From: Cyclobacteriaceae bacterium
Lineage (GTDB): Bacteria; Bacteroidota; Bacteroidia; Cytophagales; Cyclobacteriaceae
Assembly (NCBI GenBank): GCA_028281285.1
Contig: JANQKF010000015.1
Coordinates: 62,001-126,000, forward strand
Direction of reading: 5' to 3'
Length of the DNA stretch: 64,000 nucleotides
Shown here: positions 25,489-31,763 of the stretch, piece by piece
Layout of the letters: each line of letters starts with the position of its first letter
How positions within the stretch are numbered: position 1 is the first letter of the stretch
Position numbers and translations under genes: made by a program
The notes under the pieces: model-generated
Told to the model about the DNA's origin: nothing
Database searches by the model: none
Seen by the model: only the letters and a program-made list of their open reading frames with translations

Positions 25489-25543
25489 TATTTACTTAGC
25501 AAATGTAAAACTAATAATTAATTTCATATTTGTTAAGTAAATA
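25489..25543. promoter_or_regulatory. Inverted-repeat operator and promoter of PadR 3
   Basis: The arm TATTTACTTAGCAAAT (489-504 of this kb) pairs with ATTTGTTAAGTAAATA (528-543), 15 of 16 matching, across a 23-bp spacer. A minus-strand TACATTTG (25500-25507) fits the TAnnTTTG -7 consensus and overlaps the proximal arm. No clear -33 TTG is visible. From here to 25734 the DNA is AT-rich without a gene. Confidence 0.6.
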
Positions 25544-25734
25544 GAAAGATTTAATCCAAATACAGAAGGCACGCATCTTTACTATTGTCAGGTTTACTAA
25601 CAAAGAGAACGTGCTTATGATGAGAATTTTATTATTTATTCTTATTTATATAATAAATTAGTTGACTATTGAGAAACATTTGCCCAATTTCCTTGGAGAC
25701 ATGGGTTGTATGTATCTCATGAGAAAATTGGACC

Positions 25735-26367
25735 ATGCGAAAAAAAAGACCAGATTTTTCAAATTATTTAGCTCACTTTACGACAGGTAGACCACCTGTA
25801 TCAAAAGAAGAGAATAACCCTTCACTAAAACCGACTAAAGGAAAAACAGCCTATCAAAGACTTATCTCAATTCTTCAAAGCAAAAAAATTATAGCATCAA
25901 ATCTTCCATGGACTGGTAGACAGGCAGTCTGTCTAACTGAATGTCCTTGGTCGAGTCTAATAGATCACTCTCGTCAATATTCGGCATATGGTATTGGCTT
26001 CAACAAGCCTTTGGTTTTTGCTGCAGGAGGTGGACCCGTTTATTACGTGAGAAAGGATCATTGGGATAAACAAAATTGGGACAACCACTTAAGAACATTT
26101 GTGACCCCTTTTTGGCCTACCTACCGATCTAAAAAGCAAAGGGAGAGTGTCGATTTTGGTACTGTAGACTACTCTCAAGAAAGAGAATGGAGAGTACCCC
26201 ATGACCTCTTATTCGAGTATTCACATATTGAATTTGTTATTGTCAAGAAATATGAAGATATGGCTAGGTTTCCCAAAGAGTTAAAGGATGCAATTGGTAG
26301 AGACAAATTCATTATTATGGAAGTTTATACCAATATTGAACGACTTTGGCCTGTTCATAACATTTGA
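25735..26367 (+). CDS. AbiGi/DUF2971-like protein, possible abortive-infection component
   Basis: 210 residues with no firm family assignment. The pattern LAHFTT (about 12-17), LISILQSKKIIAS, AVCLTECPWSSLIDH, YGIGFNKPLV, GGPVYYVR and SQEREWRVP resembles proteins annotated AbiGi or DUF2971, as I remember them. Spaced H, Y and E motifs of this kind recall ADP-ribosyltransferase-like folds, but that is a guess. It lies 41 bp upstream of an EcoRI-type methyltransferase and a DUF262-HNH nuclease on the same strand. The context points to phage defence. Confidence 0.6.
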   Translation: MRKKRPDFSNYLAHFTTGRPPVSKEENNPSLKPTKGKTAYQRLISILQSKKIIASNLPWTGRQAVCLTECPWSSLIDHSRQYSAYGIGFNKPLVFAAGGGPVYYVRKDHWDKQNWDNHLRTFVTPFWPTYRSKKQRESVDFGTVDYSQEREWRVPHDLLFEYSHIEFVIVKKYEDMARFPKELKDAIGRDKFIIMEVYTNIERLWPVHNI

Positions 26368-26408
26368 ATATGAGGTATCTGTTACAAATAGGACTTTGAT
26401 AGACTCAA

Positions 26409-27500
26409 ATGGCAAACACCAATCTTACAGCAGCCAAGAAGGCAAAAAACGATGAGTTCTACACGCAATATCCCTATATACAGAAAGAAATTCAGGCATA
26501 CATAGATCACAACCCAAAGGTTTTTAGGGGTAAGACCATTTTGTTACCATGTGATGACCCAGAGTGGAGCAATTTCACAAAGTTCTTTGCACAGAATTTT
26601 GAACGTTTTGGTCTAAAGAAACTCATTAGTACAAGTTATGCGGTTGAAAGCAAACATTATAAGGAAGGTTATCAAGTGACCATGTTCGAGGAAAGTGCTC
26701 CGCAATACGATAAAAGTAAGACCAAATCCAATGGGAAAATATTCTCACTGACACGTGATATTTCGGGAGATGGAAAAATCGATGTCAACGATTTGGAATG
26801 GAAGTATCTCCAAGGTAATGGTGATTTTAAAAGTGACGAAGTAAAGGCTTTGCGAGACGAAGCCGATTTTATTATCACCAATCCACCTTTCTCATTGTTT
26901 CGTGAGTTTGTTGAATGGGTTATTGAAGCTGATAAGCAATTTCTCATAATTGGTAGTATCAATGCTATTACCTACAAGGAAGTCTTTAGCCGAATCAAAC
27001 AAAACGAAATCTGGTTAGGTGCAACAGGGTATAGTGATGACATGGTATTTGCTGTACCTCCAGGTACTGAAGTAGATGAGAAGGACAGAGACAAAGCGGC
27101 ACGTCTCGGTTATGTAGGGGACTACACAAGACTAGGAAACTCTTGTTGGTTTACAAGTATCGAACACGGGAAAAGATATCAGCCTTTACCACTTATGTCT
27201 CAATCTGACATAGTCAAATTCTGTCTAAAGAAACCTTTTGAAAGCTACGATAATTACAAAGCGATTGAAGTTCCTAAAGTAAAGTTTATTCCTGGAGACT
27301 ATTATGGCGTAATGGGTGTACCCATCAGTTTTCTGGACAAATATTGTCCTGAACAATTTGAGATAGTTGGAAGTGATTATTACATCAAAGACGGATTGCT
27401 ACCTGAACTAGTCAAGTCTAGTTGGAAAGGGAAACTCGATAGAGGATACATAAACAATAAGAGACTATATAGTCGTATTCTCATTAAGCACAAAAACTAA
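26409..27500 (+). CDS. Adenine-specific DNA methyltransferase, EcoRI methylase family
   Basis: 363 residues. The N-terminal [16 protein letters not shown], the loop [16 protein letters not shown] (about 45-60) and the catalytic NPPF (158-161, in [13 protein letters not shown]) match the EcoRI methyltransferase family, which adds a methyl group from S-adenosylmethionine to N6 of adenine. Residues 117-128 ([12 protein letters not shown]) fit the 12-residue EF-hand calcium-loop pattern exactly. The target sequence cannot be predicted. The gene ends 5 bp before a nuclease-like gene, so it probably protects host DNA in a restriction-modification or related system. Confidence 0.88.
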
Positions 27501-27505
27501 TCAGT

Positions 27506-28669
27506 ATGAAAACCACACTTCGAACTGACATTACAGTAAAAGATATTTGTCAAGGATTTCAATACAACGAATACGAAGGAAAGGGTTTATTTGGACTTTC
27601 AGGCACACTCACAATTCAGCCTGAATACCAGCGCAATTACATTTACGCTGATGGTAAAAAGGACGTAGCCGTTATAGATTCCCTTTTGAAGGAATACCCT
27701 CTCGGACTTATATACTTTGTTAAGGTAGCAGAAGAAAAATTCGAGGTATTGGACGGCCAACAGCGTATTACGAGTTTCGGGAGGTATGTTACAAACAAAT
27801 TTGCTGTGAAAGACGAAAATGGAATGGAGCAATATTTTGACGGACTACCTACCGATAAACAAAAGATTATCTTGGATGCTAAGTTGGTCATCTACGAATG
27901 CGAAGGGGAAGAAAGTGAGATAAAGGAATGGTTCAAAACAATAAATATTGTGGGCGTTCCCTTAAATGAGCAAGAAGTGAATAACGCTATCTTCTCAGGT
28001 CCATTTGTTACCCTTGCTAAGGCTGAATTCAGTAGTAGTCAAACTGCGGAAGTTCAAAAGTGGGGTGCCTATATAAAGGGTAGTGAAAAACGACAGGATT
28101 TCTTGGAACGGGCTTTAGATTGGGTTAGTAAAGGACAAATTGTTCCTTATATGAGTCGCCATAGGTATGATGATAATATTCGAGAACTGACCTCTTATTT
28201 CAACAGTGTTATCGATTGGGTAAGTACCACATTTGAAGATGTGGAAAAGGAAATGTGTGGTCTTGAATGGGGACGTTTATATGAGGAATACCACGCAACG
28301 GCCTACAGTCCTAAAAAGGTTTCTGAACAGTTGCAAGCCCTTTTAGAAGATCCTTTTGTCATCAACAAGAAAGGGATTTTTGAATACATTCTTGGAGGTT
28401 CGGTAGACAAAAAGTTATTGAACGTACGAATTTTTAGTGAAGCCACTAAAAAATCAGTTTATGCTACACAAACCACGAAAGCAAAGGATGAAGGAACTTC
28501 AAATTGTCCCCATTGTGCGATGGGACATGGTGCCAACAAAACTAAAATATGGGCACTGAAGGACATGGATGCTGACCATGTTACTGCTTGGATCAATGGT
28601 GGCAGCACGGATATCGAGAACTGCCAAACGTTATGTAAAACTGACAACCGCGCAAAAGGTAATCGCTAA
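27506..28669 (+). CDS. DUF262-HNH nuclease, candidate restriction enzyme
   Basis: 387 residues. The N-terminal DUF262 domain shows QPEYQRNY (38-45) and the key DGQQR (83-87), the motif associated with nucleotide use in GmrS/DndB-like ParB-fold proteins. The C-terminus is a compact HNH nuclease: CPHC (334-337), DADH (355-358), IEN (N372), a CxxxC-type cysteine pair (373/377) and TDNRAKGNR. It very likely cuts DNA; whether it senses unmodified, modified or phage DNA is open. Pairing with the methyltransferase suggests a restriction-modification unit. Confidence 0.85.
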
Positions 28670-28729
28670 GATTTCCAGAGTCAGCAAATTGACAAGTCTC
28701 ATTTTGTCTTATGAAAAACTAACAATGCA

Positions 28730-29425
28730 ATGCCTATGTCAAACAGTTCACAAGAAAAGATTGGGATCAAAGAAATGCACAACATTTTATGGAAATGTCG
28801 TGACTTCGAGATTTCTCACTTATGGCAAAGGTCCGTTTTCCTCACAGCCTTTCTAATTGCGACCATCACATTCTATGGAGCTGTGCTTTCGAAGTTAATT
28901 GAAATCACAAACTCTATGGGTCCAAAGTTTATCTTCTTGAATATTGCTACGCTAGTAATCTGTTTATTAGGATCAGTTTTCTCAACACTATGGATCAAGA
29001 TGGCTAAAGGTTCAAAAGCTTGGTATGAAATTTATGAAAAAGCCATTGTTGCCTTCGAAAGAGATAGCGAATTTATTGACAGTAAACTTAAAAAAATAGC
29101 CGCTTTTAACTACCCATCTCATCGCAATTACGAAGGGTTTAGATTGAACAATAGTCTCTTTGCTGTTCGAGCTGGAGCTTATTCAGTGTCCAAAATTAAT
29201 ATTGGAATAGGTCAGGTATTCTTGGTTTTCTGGCTGACAGCTTATGCGATTCACTGGATACTGTTTGCCTTGATGGTATACCCCAACTCCAATATTACCT
29301 TCTACTTTATTATGATAGTTGGGCTATTGCTTCTAATCCTTCTTTATGGTTTAGTTTTCAATAAAAGAACATTCAAGAGTTCAACAATTGAAAAATTTTC
29401 CTTAGCGAGCAATCAAGTGGAATAA
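28730..29425 (+). CDS. Four-helix membrane protein, RipA-like, in the defence island
   Basis: 231 residues; ATG codons at 28730 and 28736 are both possible starts. Two hydrophobic helices (about 35-55 and 65-90) are followed by a soluble stretch with KGSKAWYEIYEKAIVAFERD. Two more helices follow at about 165-190 and 195-215. The LWIKMAKGSKAWYEIYE signature resembles membrane proteins annotated as RipA family octameric proteins, and in layout SLATT effectors; this is from memory. It lies 60 bp after the nuclease gene on the same strand. It could be a membrane effector that depolarises the cell, or an unrelated passenger. Confidence 0.6.
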   Translation: MPMSNSSQEKIGIKEMHNILWKCRDFEISHLWQRSVFLTAFLIATITFYGAVLSKLIEITNSMGPKFIFLNIATLVICLLGSVFSTLWIKMAKGSKAWYEIYEKAIVAFERDSEFIDSKLKKIAAFNYPSHRNYEGFRLNNSLFAVRAGAYSVSKINIGIGQVFLVFWLTAYAIHWILFALMVYPNSNITFYFIMIVGLLLLILLYGLVFNKRTFKSSTIEKFSLASNQVE

Positions 29426-29578
29426 GGTGCTGCGCCAATCTCGTAAAACATGCAACTAAACCACTCCCATGTCGCTCAGAATGACAAAACTGGTTTTGAA
29501 TTTAGACCAACGTTGGTTTCATTACCAACATATTTTAGCTTGCCTATTGTCGACCAGATTGACCAATAGCTTAGAACA
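29426..29578. other. Short intergenic region with repeat remnant
   Basis: It holds a GTCGCTCAGAATGAC fragment (about 29469-29483) of the same kind as the repeats at 16.8-17.0 kb. It ends in the 5' flank of the truncated AraC copy. No gene is seen. Confidence 0.4.
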
Positions 29579-29758
29579 ATGAACTACCAAACCTTCCCCC
29601 CTCACCCTAATCTTGACGCGATTGTAAAATGTCATTGGATCTTGGAGGTGCCGGGCGATCTGAAGGCACCCAAACAACTGGTAGTTCCGGATGGATGTGT
29701 GGAGATGTACTTTATCCTTGGGGATGATGTGAAGCGGTTTACTTCAGAAACCGATTTT
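29579..29758 (+). pseudogene. Truncated duplicate of the AraC-family gene at 30404
   Basis: The first 60 codons (MNYQTFPPHPNLDAIVKCHW to FTSETDF) match the intact gene at 30404 with only three residue changes. The similarity then stops abruptly within the N-terminal DUF6597-like domain. The reading frame runs on into unrelated sequence and ends at 29824. A palindromic repeat sits just after the breakpoint. With no DNA-binding domain it cannot act as a regulator. Confidence 0.8.
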
Positions 29759-30328: not shown

Positions 30329-30403
30329 AAGTGTGACTCGATAAGATTTATCGCAAATGTAAGTATTCTTCACCAACCTAACTTAGGTCGACAAAATAGA
30401 GCA

Positions 30404-31225
30404 ATGAATTACCAAACCTTCCCTCCTCATCCTGATCTTAATGCCATTGTGAAGTGTCATTGGATTTTGGAAGTGCCGGGAGATTTGGAGGCACCCAAGC
30501 AATTAGTCGTTCCGGATGGCTGTGTGGAAATGTACTTTATTCTTGGGGATGATGTAAAGCGGTTTACCTCAGAAACGGACTTTATTATCCAGCCACGCAC
30601 GATGGTCTTCGGACCCATCACCAAACCCTATTATGTACGGCCTACTGGTGAGGTGAACACCTTTGCCGTACGGTTTTACCCCTATGGTTTTGCGAATCTG
30701 ATCTCTCAACCAATTCATGAACTGGCAGATAAGGAGACCCCGCTTAACGAGTTATTTGATAAGCAATCGGTTAGGACGTTAGAACAAGAAATTATTGAAG
30801 CTGCCTCCACTGAGGCTCGAATCAAAGTCATCGAAAGTTTCCTTTTAAGTAAACTCAAGGATCAATGGGTGATCGATAATATCGTGAAGTCTACTATTGA
30901 TACCCTCTCCCAAACCAAGGGCAATGCTTCCATCCATTCCATCTTAAAAGACGATCTCTCCAAGAGGAGAAACCTGGAACGGAAATTCTCAAAACAGGTG
31001 GGCATCAGTCCCAAGCAGTTGGGTCGGATCATTCGCTTGCAGGCCGCCCTGAAATTGATGCTGAACAACAAGGAAGCTAAACTCACCCAGGTGGCTTATG
31101 AAAGCGAATACTACGATCAGGCCCATTTTATCAAGGACTTTAAGGAGTTCACCGGCACTAACCCGAAGGAATTCTTAAGTGACGATCAGATGATGCTCTC
31201 CTCACTGATCTATGCCCGAGACTAA
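30404..31225 (+). CDS. AraC family transcriptional regulator with DUF6597-like N-domain
   Basis: 273 residues. The N-terminal cupin-like domain (about 1-130) has the KCHWILEVPGD and VVPDGCVEMYFILGD motifs common in DUF6597 regulators. The C-terminal HTH_18 domain (about 175-262) has RRNLERKFSKQVGISPKQLG and YDQAHFIKDFKEFTGTNPKEF. It probably activates or represses neighbouring VOC and hydrolase genes (inference). Its end overlaps the longest possible reading of the next VOC gene, but the likely start of that gene is 31302. Confidence 0.88.
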   Translation: MNYQTFPPHPDLNAIVKCHWILEVPGDLEAPKQLVVPDGCVEMYFILGDDVKRFTSETDFIIQPRTMVFGPITKPYYVRPTGEVNTFAVRFYPYGFANLISQPIHELADKETPLNELFDKQSVRTLEQEIIEAASTEARIKVIESFLLSKLKDQWVIDNIVKSTIDTLSQTKGNASIHSILKDDLSKRRNLERKFSKQVGISPKQLGRIIRLQAALKLMLNNKEAKLTQVAYESEYYDQAHFIKDFKEFTGTNPKEFLSDDQMMLSSLIYARD

Positions 31226-31301
31226 GGACGTCCAAGCTGTCGCATTTTTACAATTCCTGAGTTCTCAACTGATGTATCTATGCATCAGAATTCAGTACGT
31301 C

Positions 31302-31763
31302 ATGAAAACCAGCATTTATAAAATCGGGCTACTCCTCGGATTGGGCCTGATTACTTTCATCAATTCATCAGAAACTGCACAAAACAGCAACACCATGAAC
31401 AGCTATGTCTCCATTTTTGAAATTCCGGCCACCGACATTTCAAGGGCCATCAAATTCTACCAAAGCATCCTAGACATCCAGATCGAGCAAATGGAATTTT
31501 CGGGATTGGAAATGGGACTGCTTCCTTATGAAGGACAGATGGTCACCGGTGTGATTATGAAAGGAGAGGACTATACACCCTCATCCAATGGGGTCACCAT
31601 CTACCTCAATGGTGGGGACAATCTTCAGGTCGTCCTCGACCGTGTCGAAAAAAGCGGTGGGGAAATCCTTGTTCCTAAAACTCCGCACGCTGATGAAAGT
31701 GGTTTCTTTGCTTTATTTCTTGATTCAGAGGGAAACAAAATGGGACTGCATTCCCCTAATTGA
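31302..31763 (+). CDS. VOC family protein (glyoxalase/bleomycin-resistance type)
   Basis: 153 residues from the ATG at 31302. The VOC core is MNSYVSIFEIPATDISRAIK, FYQSIL and GFFALFLDSEGNKMGLHSPN. The first about 30 residues are hydrophobic and signal-like (YKIGLLLGLGLITFI), unusual for this normally cytosolic family. A second start at MNSYVSI (31395) would remove them. Either the protein is exported or the true start is the later ATG. The enzymatic role is unknown. Confidence 0.8.
   Translation: MKTSIYKIGLLLGLGLITFINSSETAQNSNTMNSYVSIFEIPATDISRAIKFYQSILDIQIEQMEFSGLEMGLLPYEGQMVTGVIMKGEDYTPSSNGVTIYLNGGDNLQVVLDRVEKSGGEILVPKTPHADESGFFALFLDSEGNKMGLHSPN

Follow-up and report, generated by a model that had tools for sequence, protein, structure and literature searches.

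Four neighbouring genes in a Cyclobacteriaceae genome raise the question of which of them belong together, and how the nuclease among them would be directed to its targets. The window analysed here is a stretch of 64,000 nt, positions 62001-126000 of contig 12 in a draft genome of 5.16 Mb and 40 contigs (GenBank assembly GCA_028281285.1). Four + strand open reading frames (ORFs) occupy 25735..29425 of the window, with intergenic spacings of 41, 5, and 60 bp in order. They encode an AbiGi-like protein, an EcoRI-family methylase (M), a nuclease with DUF262 and HNH domains (R), and an 8xMP-family membrane protein. A first-pass annotation, made from the letters of the window, had placed four same-strand genes at these coordinates, which the ORFs confirm, and had read them as one defence-like island whose outer genes may add a suicide layer. 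We conclude that M and R are a mobile two-gene restriction-modification (RM) pair of ~2.3 kb, and that the four genes do not together make up one system. Within the pair, R most likely depends on M for its specificity, by analogy with Type III or BREX (bacteriophage exclusion) systems, rather than acting as a Type II enzyme; we hold this with somewhat more confidence than doubt. The two genes and the features within them are as follows.

26409..27500, + strand: M, EcoRI-family adenine-specific DNA methyltransferase, 363 aa (PF13651; PADLOC MTase_II)
27009..27143, + strand: V1 block of M, residues ~201-245, hypervariable and resembling a target recognition domain (TRD); 18 types in 95 pairs, 15 members in the type of the window
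27369..27464, + strand: V2 block of M, residues ~321-352, hypervariable and TRD-like; 42 types in 95 pairs, five members in the type of the window
27506..28669, + strand: R, GmrSD_N (DUF262, ParB/Srx-like) plus HNH nuclease, 387 aa, with no variable block within its clade
27752..27766, + strand: DGQQR motif of R (GmrS NTPase signature), residues 83-87, from an alignment of 57 sequences
28559..28666, + strand: HNH nuclease domain of R, residues 352-387 (PF01844)

Linkage and composition of the pair

Matches to R in the genome collection numbered at least 563 stretches, of which the best 80 were used. M lay upstream of R in 77 of these 80 loci, and the remaining three (L177, L179, and L196) were ended by the contig, with at most 669 bp upstream. 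The gap between the two genes in the 77 loci was within 60 bp in 67 and exactly -4 bp in 34. Nine gaps measured 180 bp to 3.2 kb, with intervening ORFs in all eight of those inspected. In the plasmid and phage set, which comprised 15 plasmid and two phage records, M preceded R, both on one strand, in 17/17 loci; at one of them (L237), M is a fragment adjoining an IS256 transposase. The first-pass proposal that the methylase and the DUF262-HNH gene form an RM-type unit is borne out by this co-inheritance. We also considered an R that stands without M and rejected it. Of six loci lacking M, L022, L038, and the three named above have 0-669 bp of contig upstream, and at the sixth, L006, an M is found farther upstream (L242, 40% identical to the window M over 348 residues), with two ORFs intervening.

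R matches were present in 16/395 genomes of the phylum, the genome of the window included (E<=1e-20), at 20 viral loci, in 91 plasmid records (43 with at least 80% cover), and in 10 phage records (four with at least 80%). Annotations of the plasmid records often name the adjoining EcoRI-family methylase. A viral scan based on M gave 48 loci; no R was detected at 22 of them, some of which are truncated. Two R copies, at L012 and L016, carry one in-frame stop apiece and are possibly decaying.

M matched the EcoRI_methylase family (PF13651) over its full length, with an E of 2.5e-115, and PADLOC MTase_II with an E of 9.8e-87. Its NPPF motif, at residues 158-161, is invariant in 62 aligned sequences, window included. 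R matched GmrSD_N/DUF262 (PF03235, E 4.2e-19) and, at the C-terminus, HNH (PF01844, E 9.8e-9). No other Pfam family matched R at E<=1, including DUF1524 (PF07510) and any helicase domain of the Res type. All 57 aligned sequences, window included, share the DGQQR motif (D83, G84, Q85, Q86, and R87); in the same alignment, H358 and N372 of the HNH domain are invariant, and D357 and N381 are at least 90% conserved. For GmrSD, DGQQR has been proposed to serve NTPase activity and HNH to serve cleavage (PMC4619093; review PMC12707154; here and below, each paper is cited from part of its text). R has the parts of a nuclease gated by nucleoside triphosphate (NTP), the domains being observed and the activity predicted. 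Against the PDB, single sequences of R, M, and the 8xMP protein had no match and the AbiGi-like protein had one (E 0.48). The M profile had none, and the R profile had four weak matches at E 0.007-0.019: the HNH entry 4h9d, a lysozyme, the DUF262 protein 7p9k, and the restriction enzyme 6ghc. R also matched the PADLOC REase_II model PDLC03418 over its full length (E 1.1e-81). Its family is already catalogued there as a Type II restriction enzyme, in an entry that is silent on blocks borne by M and on the constancy of R.

The V1 and V2 blocks of M and their relation to R

All searches together gave 168 loci, not all of them distinct records; judged by the last 300 residues, 132 of the R are distinct. 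Pairs were retained if the R ORF spanned 1050 nt or more, M measured 850 nt or more, and no more than 5 kb separated the two, which left 129 pairs with the window; removal of identical pairs left 115. In 95 of these, R was at least 60% identical to the window R; the other 20 were analysed apart. Restriction genes usually diverge faster than methylases. Among the 115 distinct pairs, 4047 comparisons with R at 65% or more gave mean identities of 75.7% for R and 58.7% for M, with M lower in 98.9%, although a low M relative to R is favoured here because the loci were chosen by R similarity.

The identity profile of M in the 95 pairs falls to 0.19-0.46 at residues 201-250 and to 0.15-0.22 at residues 321-350, and the second variable block also contains long insertions. 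Over 4465 comparisons, the means were 74.4% for R, 71.3% for the M core, 29.4% for V1, and 17.3% for V2. No such block was seen in R across this clade, where the lowest ten-residue mean pairwise identity is 0.49. Gap cells at window positions of R number 5/36765, and its internal insertions span 1-5 columns, with longer ones terminal.

V1 identities are bimodal. At a cut of 60% identity, V1 falls into 18 types (nine with at least three members) and V2 into 42 (12 with at least three), in 70 V1-by-V2 combinations. Inside types, V1 averaged 76.0% identity (491 comparisons) and V2 72.5% (161 comparisons); across types the values were 23.7% (3974) and 15.2% (4304). The M core and R stood at 75-77% in the inside-type comparisons, close to the blocks themselves. 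Unconstrained drift as the sole cause of V1 and V2 variability was rejected, since identity inside types equals that of the M core. The V1 type of the window is common to 14 other loci, including Chloroflexi and Clostridia bins, and its V2 type to four others, including Maribacter and a Wolfebacteria genome. On these alignments, V1 and V2 appear to be discrete, freely combined, exchangeable alleles.

On viral contigs, three of the M genes for which no R was detected match block types of complete pairs, with best V1/V2 identities of 77/90% for L062, 72/91% for L065, and 76/73% for L086. These M genes may possibly protect the phages themselves against an M-R system.

R identity followed the M core and showed little relation to the blocks. 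In Mantel tests with 199 permutations, R correlated with the M core (rho 0.23, p 0.005); the values for V1 were rho 0.04 and p 0.18, and for V2 rho 0.03 and p 0.27. A test of single columns against shuffled type labels, on 95 sequences with phylogeny ignored, found no R column tied to block type at z>4 (0/387 for V1 and 0/387 for V2; maxima 3.56 and 3.59). Of the 264 M columns outside V1 and V2 (up to residue 195 and 250-318), 46 reached this level for V1 type and 28 for V2 type.

Individual locus pairs point the same way. In L034 and L037, R differs at one residue, with V1 at 27% and V2 at 16% identity. Along the DNA of their M genes, identity is 97-100% over residues 1-160, falls via 85 and 77% to 28-53% over residues 201-260, returns to 90-93% over residues 261-320, and is 25-46% at the end; the R DNA that follows is 95-100% identical. 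All five locus pairs in this border comparison, L034/L037 and four more, drop in both blocks. Genome G212 has two loci on different contigs with R at 97%, V1 at 23%, and V2 at 13%, although its assembly is possibly a mixture of strains. Pseudarthrobacter psychrotolerans YJ56 carries two plasmids with one system each, and here R is 71%, V1 18%, and V2 12% identical. The plasmid pair L234/L235 has R at 87%, V1 at 38%, and V2 at 24%. Among distant pairs, L018/L013 has R at 97%, V1 at 23%, and V2 at 13%, and L020/L014 has R at 85%, V1 at 23%, and V2 at 12%. Two loci place two M genes ahead of a single R, L146:5693-9164 (Maribacter algarum) and L047:1549-4994. The two M copies are 21% identical in V1 and 12% in V2 at L146, and 15% in both blocks at L047. 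Alternatively, each such couple of M genes may serve an asymmetric site, with one methylase per strand. Taken from the sequences, the overall pattern looks like an exchange of TRDs that R does not follow.

How R may be directed to its targets

Blocks of a methyltransferase that are discrete, widely shared, and independently reassorted resemble the TRDs of Type I HsdS and Type III Mod. If V1 and V2 are TRDs, then the targets of the pairs differ, and R has no visible means of its own to follow them, so that R would either take its direction from M or itself respond to the mark. In the mechanism that we favour, M would be an adenine methyltransferase that marks host DNA, as its family suggests, and would set the target sequence via its exchangeable V1 and V2 blocks, which would read the DNA. 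R would be a GmrSD-like effector, with the DUF262 NTPase-type domain and the HNH nuclease, and would act at sites that M finds unmethylated, either in an M-R complex or recruited by M. Binding or hydrolysis of NTP would gate HNH cleavage. An exchange of V1 or V2 would then shift the specificity of modification and of restriction jointly, with R unchanged. It is close to an even call whether the pair also amounts to a distinct RM architecture, in which an M with two built-in, reassorting blocks aims a constant, NTP-gated DUF262-HNH nuclease, and which is spread across phyla, plasmids, and phages and hidden by the Type II label.

Parts of this arrangement have counterparts in known systems. In Type III systems, the TRDs of Mod are swapped while Res stays constant. 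The M-R pair resembles them, in its sequence pattern, by a variable recognition region in the methyltransferase and a conserved restriction subunit. It differs in that Res combines a helicase and a nuclease, whereas R has GmrSD_N and HNH only, and in that M belongs to the EcoRI family and has two variable blocks. An experimental precedent is BREX, where the methyltransferase PglX is the sole specificity factor for both marking and phage targeting (PMC11341690); however, type 1 BREX has six genes against two here, and PglX has a single TRD, with spacer helices after it. Type I systems also have two recognition blocks that vary among members (HsdS; PMC12707154), but those of M-R sit inside the methyltransferase and not in a separate HsdS. 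Annotations of 15 plasmid and phage stretches name no specificity subunit, although no search was aimed at HsdS.

R shares the DUF262 domain with its invariant DGQQR and a C-terminal HNH with GmrSD, BrxU, and SspE, but those proteins carry DUF1524, whereas the C-terminus of R is PF01844 and its gene is tied to an EcoRI-family methylase. Unlike free-standing Type IV enzymes, R was accompanied by M wherever the contig allowed. With EcoRI itself, a Type IIP system, the pair shares the Pfam family of the methylase and the separate, tightly linked M and R genes. The first-pass view that it differs from classical EcoRI holds for both the domains of R, which are DUF262-HNH, and the gene order, which is M then R here and R then M in EcoRI (PMC12707154). 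The two proteins of a classical Type II pair differ in how they recognise the site (PMC4081073). A further difference from Type IIP, which presumes that V1 and V2 are the recognition regions, is that R is unchanged as the blocks of M change (0/387 columns; L034/L037). No paper joining DUF262 with an EcoRI methyltransferase by name was found in the searched literature, which is short of most subscription papers and does not extend to REBASE; PF13651 appeared there, by listing, in a chlorovirus methylome only. The pair is not described in the available parts of PMC4619093, PMC12707154, PMC7785942, PMC4978471, PMC8713573, PMC12839542, PMC4081073, PMC7230728, PMC10117892, or PMC11341690.

The main rival to direction by M is that R binds no M at all, and that its DUF262 domain reads adenine methylation regardless of sequence and attacks unmarked DNA, by analogy with SspE. 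In SspE, this domain reportedly senses a phosphorothioate mark (PMC8713573), GmrSD and BrxU act on modified DNA (PMC12707154), and the absence of block-tracking columns in R fits mark sensing and M-guided action equally well. We consider mark sensing rather unlikely all the same. A window-like M, the kind of methylase covered by the search, accompanied R wherever the contig had room, which fits a partnership somewhat better, and it would be mechanistically awkward to sense that a sparse mark is missing while recognising no site. Next comes a plain Type II-like system, where R reads a fixed sequence of its own, with one specificity for all members, and V1 and V2 vary for another reason, such as escape from phage inhibitors of M. 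PADLOC favours this with its calls of MTase_II and REase_II, the latter for R in 57/57 aligned members, as does an R without a variable block, which a fixed specificity predicts. However, the blocks form discrete types (72-76% identity inside, 15-24% across) that are swapped with sharp DNA borders like TRDs. A single R accompanied by two M genes of different block types (L146 and L047) makes little sense under one specificity, and neither does one strain with two plasmid systems; we regard the plain Type II-like system as improbable.

An older candidate, a four-gene defence operon with the AbiGi-like and 8xMP proteins as an abortive layer, has in its favour the single strand, the tight spacing, and the common slot of the four genes. 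AbiGi is also a named phage-resistance family, and a relative of the 8xMP protein lies at L222 amid apparently phage-structural genes. Against this, the outer genes occurred beside M or R at 1/168 loci, the window's own (phmmer, E<=1e-3), in a single-sequence search where many loci have short flanks and distant relatives could escape, and at 0/17 plasmid and phage M-R loci at E<=1e-5. The same chromosomal slot is filled by other genes in genome G405. The four-gene operon is very improbable and was rejected, given that the outer genes are not co-inherited with M-R at the loci searched. The gene-neighbourhood check that the first-pass annotation had proposed did not find its four genes together at the M or R loci of other genomes, and its second, suicide layer is left unsupported.

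Besides the PADLOC calls, several points weigh against direction of R by M. The contact between M and R is something that we infer, and the DNA-reading role of V1 and V2 is drawn from an allele pattern that looks like that of TRDs. The choice of the best 80 genome loci by R similarity pushes R identity upwards. Residues 81-130 of M are moderately variable as well (47.6%; profile 0.42-0.55) and were excluded from the core. Weak dependence of R on the blocks would escape the column test. Nearest neighbours by R shared a V1 type in 26/95 cases (~10 expected) and a V2 type in 9/95 (~4 expected), which is also expected from recent common descent. A third locus with two M genes, L073, is without block contrast (core 50%, V1 42%, V2 50%). 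Identities in the 20 distant pairs were 46% for R, 61% for the M core, 28% for V1, and 21% for V2, and means for the 17 plasmid and phage loci were 61, 69, 31, and 21%. In both sets R is below the M core, so that R is not unusually slow in general and only the blocks are unusually fast. Block variability extends beyond the clade of the window, and the relative conservation of R is confined to it.

If R is aimed by M, the specificity of marking and cutting would change by recombination of two short blocks in one gene. This would explain nearly identical nucleases beside methylases with different recognition blocks, and it would add a new role for DUF262 proteins to those in Type IV restriction and in the sensing of phosphorothioate. 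The Type II label that a defence catalogue gives to the R family may then be wrong. Natural allele pairs with equal nucleases and different blocks are direct test material.

Neighbouring genes, the variable slot, and the M-R interspace

The two outer genes and the extent of the inserted DNA are as follows.

25735..26367, + strand: AbiGi-like protein, 210 aa, a neighbour outside the conserved unit (Pfam, PADLOC, and homologue scans)
28730..29425, + strand: 8xMP-family membrane protein, 231 aa, a neighbour outside the conserved unit (PF24838)
25544..29571, no strand: approximate cargo extent, from DNA comparison with the same-genus genome G405

Genome G405 (L101) has the flanks of the slot in matching order, a PadR regulator (95% aa identity), a permease (77%), and an AraC-type gene (87%), and its slot contains genes other than the four of the window. 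DNA homology between the two genomes ends at 25543, restarts at 29579 in a truncated second AraC copy, and restarts again at 30401, with 76.8% DNA identity from 30401 to 31763 over the AraC-type gene and the next gene. At this right edge, 29572-29758 repeats 30397-30583 (86% over 187 nt) and is a truncated copy of the first part of the AraC-type gene at 30404. A 3-dmu-9_3-mt/glyoxalase-like gene lies between the two copies. The AbiGi-like and 8xMP genes look like separate cargo sharing one variable chromosomal slot, apparently as unrelated neighbours of M-R. The island is AT-rich compared with the flanking permeases, as the first-pass annotation had noted, but the difference, while real, is modest: the five 1-kb bins of 25-30 kb have a GC content of 0.378-0.400, against 0.406-0.456 in the bins of 9-25 kb. 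In the rest of the window, 7/59 bins are below 0.400, and one is below the island level (0.374, 48-49 kb).

The first-pass label of AbiGi/DUF2971-like held in part. The AbiGi-like protein matched PF10899 above the cut-off (E 1.6e-7), over residues 62-119 alone, or 58 of 185 profile positions, whereas DUF2971 was absent from the Pfam matches of all four proteins at E<=1. No AbiGii lies beside the gene, which is flanked by a PadR regulator on one side and by the methylase on the other. When lactococcal two-component Abi proteins were tested in E. coli, AbiEii alone was toxic, and AbiGi and AbiGii singly were not (PMC3985639). Among 296 phylum genomes, the genome of the window included, relatives of the AbiGi-like protein were found in five others, each weak, and relatives of the 8xMP protein in six others, one of them strong; none of either was confirmed in the viral scans. 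The 8xMP protein matched PF24838 with an E of 2e-22. Its closest relative found is L222:5594-6259 (41%), in a genome of the same class, amid genes that appear phage-structural by eye, a context that suggests a cargo gene carried by phages. A second match to the family lies in the genome of the window itself (G000), on contig 1 at 237136-237546 (L216, E 8.4e-8). The searched literature held no biological paper on 8xMP by name, the string occurring only in papers that are on health economics by their titles, and "octameric membrane protein" had no match there in connection with bacteria.

The M-R interspace, too, appears to be a place where cargo accumulates. Pfam assigned the interspace genes to an IS200-like Y1 transposase (L149:7440-7889), DUF3800 (L154:2858-3595), ORF6N (L160:239-895), Bro-N (L034:2469-3320), and RhuM (L173:6912-7970). 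An interspace protein at L183:831-1280 resembles that of L149 by eye. At L161:4868-6427, in a Moraniibacteriota bin, M and R are separated by a nucleotidyltransferase (NTP_transf_2, with SMODS below the cut-off) and a Cap15 cyclic-nucleotide receptor protein. By its predicted domains, this insert would be a unit like CBASS (cyclic oligonucleotide-based antiphage signalling system) nested within the restriction pair.

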